The notes beneath the pieces are model-generated. The model was not told the DNA's origin. It saw only the letters and a list, made by a program, of their open reading frames with translations, and did not search any database. Of a stretch of 64,000 nt of DNA, positions 1-1,375 are shown one piece after another. Source of the stretch: Acidobacteriota bacterium (lineage in GTDB: Bacteria > Acidobacteriota > Vicinamibacteria > Vicinamibacterales > SCN-69-37); NCBI GenBank assembly GCA_020853395.1, contig JADYYY010000002.1, positions 332,609-396,608 on the forward strand. The letters are read 5' to 3'. A program made the position numbers and the translations under genes. Every line of letters begins with the position of its first letter. Position 1 is the stretch's first letter.

Positions 1-30
1 AAGAAGGACGCAGAGCTGCTCGGCCGGTAG
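1..30 (+). CDS. C-terminal tail of an upstream gene (partial)
   Basis: The first 30 bases read as nine codons (KKDAELLGR) followed by TAG, ending one base before the GTG start of the next gene. The tight spacing fits an operon. Too little is present to name the product, and the call rests only on frame and position. Confidence 0.4.
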   Translation, partial: KKDAELLGR

Positions 31-31
31 C

Positions 32-1222
32 GTGCCTACGTTCTTCTCCCACCTGGAGTGCTCGGTACCGTGCGGTGCCGGCCCCTTCGATCCGCGGCAG
101 CGCCACCAGACGTGCACGTGCGGCGCGCCGCTGCTCGCGCGCTACGACCTGACGGCCGCGCGGCGATGGCCGAAGTCGTCGCTCGCCGGCCGCGATACCT
201 CGCTCTGGCGCTACCAGGAGATCCTGCCGCTCTTCGAGAGCGACAACGGCGTCGATCCGCCGGTGTCGCTCGGCGAGGGGTGGACGCCCCTCCTGCGCAC
301 ACGGCGGCTCGGCAAGGCGCTCGGGCTCGACCGGCTGTACGTGAAGGACGAATCCGCGAATCCCACCGGCACCGTCCGCGCGCGCGGCATGGCGACCGCC
401 GCGACGCGCGCGCTGCACCTCGGCGCCCGCGTGCTCACGATGGCGACGGCCGGCAGCGGCGCGCCGGCCATGGCCGCGTACGCCTCGCGAGGCGGCCTCG
501 ATGCCCGCGTCTTCATGCCGCGTGATGCGCGCCGGCCGTTCGTCAAGGAGTGCGAGCTGGCGGGCGCGGTCGTGACGCTCGTGGACGGCCCAGCGACGAG
601 CGCCGTGGCGCATGCATCCGATCGCGTGGCGACGTCGGGCTGGTATCACGTGACCGCGTTTCACGAGCCGTATCGGCTCGAAGGCGAGAAGACCCTTGGT
701 TACGAGCTGGCCGAGCAGTGCGGCTGGCAACTCCCCGACTGGATCGGCTGCCCGGTCGGAGAAGGCACGGCCGTCGTGGGCCTCTGGAAGGCGTTTGCCG
801 AGATGGCGGCGCTCGGCTGGATCGATCCGGTCCGCCGGCCGCGCCTCGTCTGCGTGCAGGCGGCTGGCTGCGCGCCGCTCGTCCGCGCCTTCGGCGCCGG
901 CGCCGAGAAAGCGGTGGCGTGGGACCGGCCGCAGACGATCGCGGACGATCTGCGGATTCCCGACACGTCGGGAGACGCGCTGGCGCTCCGCGCAATCCGC
1001 GAGAGCGGCGGCGTCGCCACGGCGGTCGGCGACGCCGAGATGATCGCCGGCGTGAAAGAGTGCGGTCAGACGGAAGGGCTGAGCGCGTCGCCCGGCACGG
1101 GCGCCGTCGTGCACGCCCTGCGCGTGCTGGCCAGCGAAGGCCAGATCAAACCGCAGGAAATCGTCGTCGTCCTCAACACCGGCAGCGCCACGCGGTACTT
1201 GGATGTGCTCGCGGGCAGTTGA
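32..1222 (+). CDS. Threonine-synthase-like protein lacking the PLP lysine
   Basis: This 396-aa protein has the layout of the long ThrC family: a Cys-rich N-terminal ribbon (Cys10, 14, 28, 30), the SLGEGWTPLL block near residue 79, and the fold-type II PLP core ending in a NTGSATRYLDVL-like segment. ThrC normally converts O-phosphohomoserine to threonine using PLP bound to the Lys of a PTGSFKARG motif. Here the motif reads PTGTVRARG, so Arg116 (codon CGC, 377-379) replaces that Lys. The glycine-rich phosphate loop is also altered (GEGTA instead of GGGTG), as is the N-terminal loop (TAGSGAP instead of a GN-containing loop). Family membership is clear; a normal PLP reaction is unlikely. The start is GTG at 32. 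It may be a pseudoenzyme or may have a new role. Confidence 0.85.
   Translation: MPTFFSHLECSVPCGAGPFDPRQRHQTCTCGAPLLARYDLTAARRWPKSSLAGRDTSLWRYQEILPLFESDNGVDPPVSLGEGWTPLLRTRRLGKALGLDRLYVKDESANPTGTVRARGMATAATRALHLGARVLTMATAGSGAPAMAAYASRGGLDARVFMPRDARRPFVKECELAGAVVTLVDGPATSAVAHASDRVATSGWYHVTAFHEPYRLEGEKTLGYELAEQCGWQLPDWIGCPVGEGTAVVGLWKAFAEMAALGWIDPVRRPRLVCVQAAGCAPLVRAFGAGAEKAVAWDRPQTIADDLRIPDTSGDALALRAIRESGGVATAVGDAEMIAGVKECGQTEGLSASPGTGAVVHALRVLASEGQIKPQEIVVVLNTGSATRYLDVLAGS

Positions 1223-1299: not shown

Positions 1300-1375
<76 letters not shown>

Follow-up and report, generated by a model that had tools for sequence, protein, structure and literature searches.

A threonine synthase homologue that has lost its Schiff-base lysine lies behind frr in an acidobacterium with a separate threonine operon

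The window analyzed here is a stretch of 64,000 nucleotides from an Acidobacteriota genome (assembly GCA_020853395.1, contig JADYYY010000002.1, positions 332,609 to 396,608). It opens with the last bases of frr, followed by a gene for a threonine synthase-like protein (referred to here as the ThrC-like gene and protein) and by a tRNA-Ala gene (Table 1). The ThrC-like ORF, which the first-pass annotation delimited identically, starts with GTG, and one base separates this codon from the TAG stop of frr. Because the gap is this short, translation of the two genes is likely to be coupled. The tRNA-Ala gene lies 77 bases 3' of the ThrC-like gene on the same strand. A toxin-antitoxin-type pair, an MntA/HepT-like nucleotidyltransferase and a HEPN protein, occupies positions 1530-2157 between the tRNA gene and lolA; no MntA/HepT-type pair was noted in the tRNA-Ala–lolA interval of the relatives compared.

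Table 1. Features of the frr-linked locus, with positions in the window and the basis of each assignment. Residues in parentheses are those of the orthologues.
Feature	Position	Strand	Basis
frr (ribosome recycling factor), 3' end	1-30	+	sequence; TIGR00496 match of 218 bits in the upstream DNA (L055:10067-10636)
ThrC-like gene, PRK08197-type threonine synthase orthologue of 396 aa without the Lys	32-1222	+	profile, alignment, model
Four-Cys module, N-terminal, zinc-ribbon-like (C10, C14, C28, C30)	59-121	+	orthologue alignment
Schiff-base motif, residues 111-119, PTGTVRARG (PTNSFKARG)	362-388	+	alignment
R116 codon, CGC	377-379	+	sequence
Asn loop, residues 139-145, TAGSGAP (TAGNAGN); N142S	446-466	+	alignment
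Gly-rich phosphate loop, residues 242-247, VGEGTA (TGGGTG); G244E, G247A	755-772	+	alignment
Residues 353-358, SPGTGA (APEGGA); E355G, G356T	1088-1105	+	alignment
C-terminal cofactor loop, residues 383-388, TGSATR (TGGALK); T383 kept, G385S, L387T, K388R	1178-1195	+	alignment
tRNA-Ala (CGC), downstream syntenic landmark	1300-1375	+	also in sister genomes, whether or not thrC is present at the locus

The ThrC-like protein scores 429.6 bits against the NCBIfam profile PRK08197 'threonine synthase' (NF006050, curated cut-off 303) and is assigned to that family; its score against TIGR00260 (thrC), 143.5, falls under the cut-off of 167.1. The four cysteines of the N-terminal module, which are 100% conserved among the orthologues, are all retained. 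An AlphaFold model calculated from 81 sequences has a pLDDT of 94.8 and a pTM of 0.93. The best Foldseek match of this model is the threonine synthase of A. thaliana (2c2b, TM-score 0.90), and the best 21 matches are all threonine synthases, which places the predicted model in the fold-type II class. Identity to the solved enzymes of A. thaliana, A. aeolicus (2zsj) and T. thermophilus (1uim) is 24-32%, with no TM-score above that of 2c2b. These proteins differ from the ThrC-like protein in being PLP enzymes, and the lysine is present in 2zsj, 1uim and 6cgq when they are aligned residue by residue. The fold is thus predicted to be intact while the cofactor site has been rebuilt, although AlphaFold models of decayed proteins may also look intact.

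The gene order rpsI-rpsB-tsf-pyrH-frr-thrC is common to this genome (G000), to genera g4 and g5, and to the more distant G066. The ThrC-like gene is the syntenic, vertically inherited member of these frr-linked orthologues. Its synteny rules out an origin as a duplicated paralogue, and at E 1e-30 the genome has just two further ThrC-type matches, genes of a threonine operon whose products are 32-34% identical to the ThrC-like protein, which also counts against duplication. Like the ThrC-like gene, the orthologues of the same order follow frr, are of similar length, encode the four-Cys module and belong to the PRK08197 family. Unlike it, they have the Schiff-base lysine and intact Asn, phosphate and C-terminal cofactor loops, and an asparaginase-like gene is their neighbor. 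Compared with the g4 and g5 relatives, neighboring genes are mostly 69-85% identical and thrC 58-60%; among these relatives themselves thrC identity is 76-97%. Tree distances between G000 and the relatives are 2.3-2.8 times greater for thrC than for five concatenated translation-operon proteins, and the same ratio among the relatives is 0.8-2.1. Elsewhere in the order, G079 has a pair of PRK08197-type genes (L105 and L114) separated by about 40 kb, one of which departs at 6 near-invariant positions and keeps the lysine.

Position 116 is lysine in all 89 same-order orthologues, in 5 of 5 distant homologues, and in the 80 other rows of a further alignment, thrB-linked paralogues included; in the ThrC-like protein it is arginine, so that the PTxSFK motif lacks its lysine. 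The first-pass annotation had reported this substitution and had judged a sequencing error unlikely because more than one base separates CGC from a lysine codon. Both statements are borne out: the orthologues use AAG (83) or AAA (6), and CGC differs from the usual codon at all three bases. These three changes, together with 28 other changes at near-invariant positions, all in frame, rule out sequencing error. A lysine elsewhere in the chain that aligns with the PLP site, a possibility raised in the same annotation, was looked for, and there is none. Its reading of the motif as PTGTVRARG stands, while the family form it quoted, PTGSFKARG, gives way to PTNSFKARG in the close family. It also listed two altered phosphate loops; GEGTA is one (GGGTG in orthologues), and TAGSGAP is instead the Asn loop. 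In enzymes of fold-type II, the Asn of that loop is in contact with the ring of PLP. This Asn is present in 89 of 89 orthologues and replaced by serine in the (S/T)xGN loop here, and both substitutions in the Gly-rich phosphate loop fall at invariant columns. The roles given to individual loops presumably follow those of fold-type II PLP enzymes, as transferred by the alignment.

Near-invariant positions, defined by a conservation of 97% or more in the orthologues, number 144. The ThrC-like protein departs at 29 of them; when the other orthologues of the order are left out in turn, the most divergent departs at 8. The departures include S114T, F115V, K116R, P138A, N142S, A143G, T209A, T242V, G244E, G247A, E355G, G356T, G385S, L387T and K388R. 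Several of these, among them T209A, E355G, G356T, G385S, L387T and K388R, had escaped the first-pass annotation, whose well-kept fold is supported by the predicted model. Changes affect 12 of the 29 near-invariant residues in the four canonical PLP motifs and 17 of the 115 elsewhere (Fisher p = 0.003, with motifs drawn by hand on an alignment already seen). Two tests that use no motif definition also find clustering along the chain, by mean nearest-neighbor distance (p = 0.003) and by the number of departures with a neighbor at most 3 residues away (p = 0.0002). Outside the motifs 98 of the 115 are retained, and the conserved R215/E217/K220 region is kept. That the protein lacks the residues needed for PLP catalysis is well supported, and the loss of ordinary PLP chemistry that the first-pass annotation expected is supported by the sequence.

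It is improbable that the protein is still an enzyme, whether by binding PLP non-covalently or by a Lys-independent chemistry of the R116/E244 pocket on a metabolite of the threonine pathway. A few PLP enzymes of other fold classes do function without a Schiff-base lysine, and the predicted fold, the four-Cys module, T383 and the R215/E217/K220 region would be in keeping with this. However, the ring-contacting Asn and the Gly-rich loop are altered in addition to the lysine, an acidic residue stands where the cofactor phosphate should sit, and a search for the pattern NPTxxxRARG in the DNA of 396 genomes of the phylum yielded no other Lys-less ThrC (three other matches, in frames that are not ThrC-like). 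No match of more than 60% identity to the ThrC-like protein was found in the order (162 genomes) or the class (193), and five distant relatives from a collection of 84,980 species all have the lysine. Sister genera have either the intact lysine or no gene, and the R116 form is known from one genome.

A complete threonine operon, thrB-thrC-thrC-thrA, is present on contig C19 of the same genome. A second, intact ThrC, which the first-pass annotation had suggested looking for, thus exists in two copies beside thrB and thrA. The ThrB scores 206 bits against TIGR00191 (cut-off 168), both tandem ThrC proteins exceed the TIGR00260 cut-off, and thrA encodes a fused aspartokinase/homoserine dehydrogenase. 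ThrC1 and ThrC2 resemble the ThrC-like protein as members of the ThrC family but differ from it in their intact lysine and other PLP motifs and in their linkage to thrB and thrA.

Among 14 genomes of the family, the C19-type ThrB occurs in G000-G003 and was not detected in G004-G013. A PRK08197-type gene with the lysine is found in G004-G013, and none at a comparable level in G001-G003. Relatives with the old enzyme have the order frr-thrC-asparaginase-PFK-tRNA-Ala-lolA, G002 and G003 have frr-tRNA-Ala-PFK-lolA with no thrC, no asparaginase and no convincing remnant of either, and G000 has frr, the altered thrC, tRNA-Ala, the MntA/HepT pair and lolA; the G001 contig stops before frr. The translation-operon tree groups G000 with G001-G003 with modest support (67). 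Across the 162 genomes of the order, 8 have both systems, 89 the frr-linked ThrC alone and 28 this ThrB alone (Fisher p = 2e-7, uncorrected for kinship). Since the operon is present and the frr-linked copy absent in G002 and G003, and this ThrB was not detected in relatives with only the frr-linked copy, the ThrC-like gene looks caught during the displacement of one threonine synthase system by another. Redundancy permits loss of the enzyme and does not force it, because in seven further genomes that combine the two systems the frr-linked ThrC is still intact.

Two observations concern the older system in the relatives. The asparaginase-like gene lies directly 3' of thrC where the enzyme is intact (L056:7755-8759 and equivalents) and is absent from the locus in G000, G002 and G003; because of this distribution its product may act together with that ThrC. 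In genera g4 and g5 the frr-linked protein is the only ThrC found, no relative of the C19 ThrB was detected although other GHMP kinases are present, and a homoserine dehydrogenase gene adjoins or overlaps a gene for a family III (CaiB-like) CoA-transferase (G013 L144:2103-3338, G006 L142:2064-3257). The missing ThrB and this neighbor hint that the PRK08197-type 'threonine synthase' may take a homoserine ester other than O-phosphohomoserine.

Selection on the ThrC-like gene was estimated with a branch codon model for eight species, in which the background dN/dS is 0.055. Synonymous sites are saturated on the ThrC-like branch, a limit met in free estimation of dN/dS, so branch length was borrowed from control genes and dN/dS profiled. 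The values, which average over active and inactive phases, are 0.44-0.22 when the length is fixed at 1.5-3, close to what the control genes indicate, and 0.67 at length 1; for the control genes, dN/dS on this branch is near 0.1. Setting dN/dS to 1 over the whole branch costs about 14-25 lnL units. No stop or frameshift interrupts the 396 codons; in comparison with a close orthologue, the length differs solely by 12 bases inserted in frame. Had the excess arisen neutrally once function was abruptly lost, about 110-450 neutral substitutions would have accumulated, 1.2-3 of every 100 of them nonsense, and by rough estimate 1-13 stops plus frameshifts would be expected, compared with the none observed. 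Third-position GC (0.89) is similar to that of the neighbors. Rough as they are, these estimates favor selection that still maintains a folded protein; evolution of the gene is accelerated, its constraint weakened and not absent.

Part of this evidence would also suit a dying relic, in which the frr-linked thrC drifts neutrally since the takeover by the thr operon, has not yet met a stop or frameshift, and would next be cleanly deleted as in genus g3. The 4- to 8-fold rise in dN/dS over background and a protein distance about 2.5 times expectation agree with such drift, as do the loss of thrC and the neighboring asparaginase in G002 and G003 and the missing asparaginase beside the ThrC-like gene. 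Against drift stand the intact frame, the concentration of near-invariant changes in the active site where a uniform spread would be expected, and the retention of most near-invariant residues outside the motifs, and we regard a relic as possible and less than probable. Very improbable is a translated spacer, whose frame would be kept only to avoid polarity and let transcription of the ribosomal operon extend to the tRNA-Ala gene. The start codon next to frr and the same-strand tRNA fit this idea, which nevertheless predicts a dN/dS of about 1 without stops and changes independent of residue; the observed values are 0.2-0.45 and the changes are clustered. In G002 and G003, moreover, the tRNA follows frr directly with no gene between.

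A pseudoenzyme, the reading given in the first-pass annotation, is favored over a dying relic: the catalytic residue is lost, and the frame and predicted fold are kept, with the near-invariant changes clustered and enriched in the PLP motifs. A conserved R116 clade among close homologues, for which the annotation proposed to look, is a possibility at most; every orthologue in the sister genera has the lysine, which at the level of the genus is the pattern the annotation had named as contrary to its proposal. The pseudoenzyme reading survives this because the remodelling is clustered in an intact frame, and simple damage to a single copy is countered by the 28 other altered near-invariant residues.

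We therefore consider it rather probable that the displaced frr-linked ThrC has been kept as a non-catalytic pseudoenzyme. In a lineage whose threonine now comes from thrB-thrC-thrC-thrA, release of the frr-linked PRK08197-type enzyme from catalysis would have allowed the loss of the Schiff-base lysine (K116R) and the remodelling of the rest of the cofactor pocket (N142S, G244E, G247A, E355G, G385S). Judged by these residues, the protein should not be able to hold PLP as an aldimine or to synthesize threonine. It is presumably still produced from the ribosomal operon and may be retained for a non-catalytic role, the likeliest being, by analogy with plant TSB-like, to act as a partner or as a ligand-binding subunit, modulating an active ThrC or binding a metabolite of the threonine pathway. 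The regulatory subunit and ligand sensor suggested in the first-pass annotation are guesses. That the protein is co-produced with the ribosomal operon as a regulator or sensor of metabolites without catalysis, perhaps pairing with ThrC1/ThrC2 to tune threonine synthesis, is a tentative and somewhat doubtful proposal.

A literature search for fold-type II pseudoenzymes like the ThrC-like protein yielded the plant precedent only. In PMC12727527, plant TSB-like is described as a fold-type II PLP biosynthetic subunit turned pseudoenzyme that activates tryptophan synthase alpha. Both proteins are derived from such subunits, have lost catalysis, apparently so in the ThrC-like protein, and have an active copy in the same organism. 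They differ in that TSB-like is described as inactivated at two key residues other than the Schiff-base lysine, one of the changes being E190 to Ala/Ser, and that its activation of TSA has been tested, while the ThrC-like protein has lost the Schiff-base lysine itself and has a proposed role only.

The locus seems to capture one step as an essential biosynthetic enzyme is replaced: sister genera have the intact old enzyme or none, and G000 combines the new operon with a form of the old enzyme that is intact yet apparently no longer catalytic. It is also an annotation trap, as automatic pipelines would label the gene threonine synthase. Should the protein indeed serve a purpose, it would represent a bacterial Lys-less pseudoenzyme of fold-type II.
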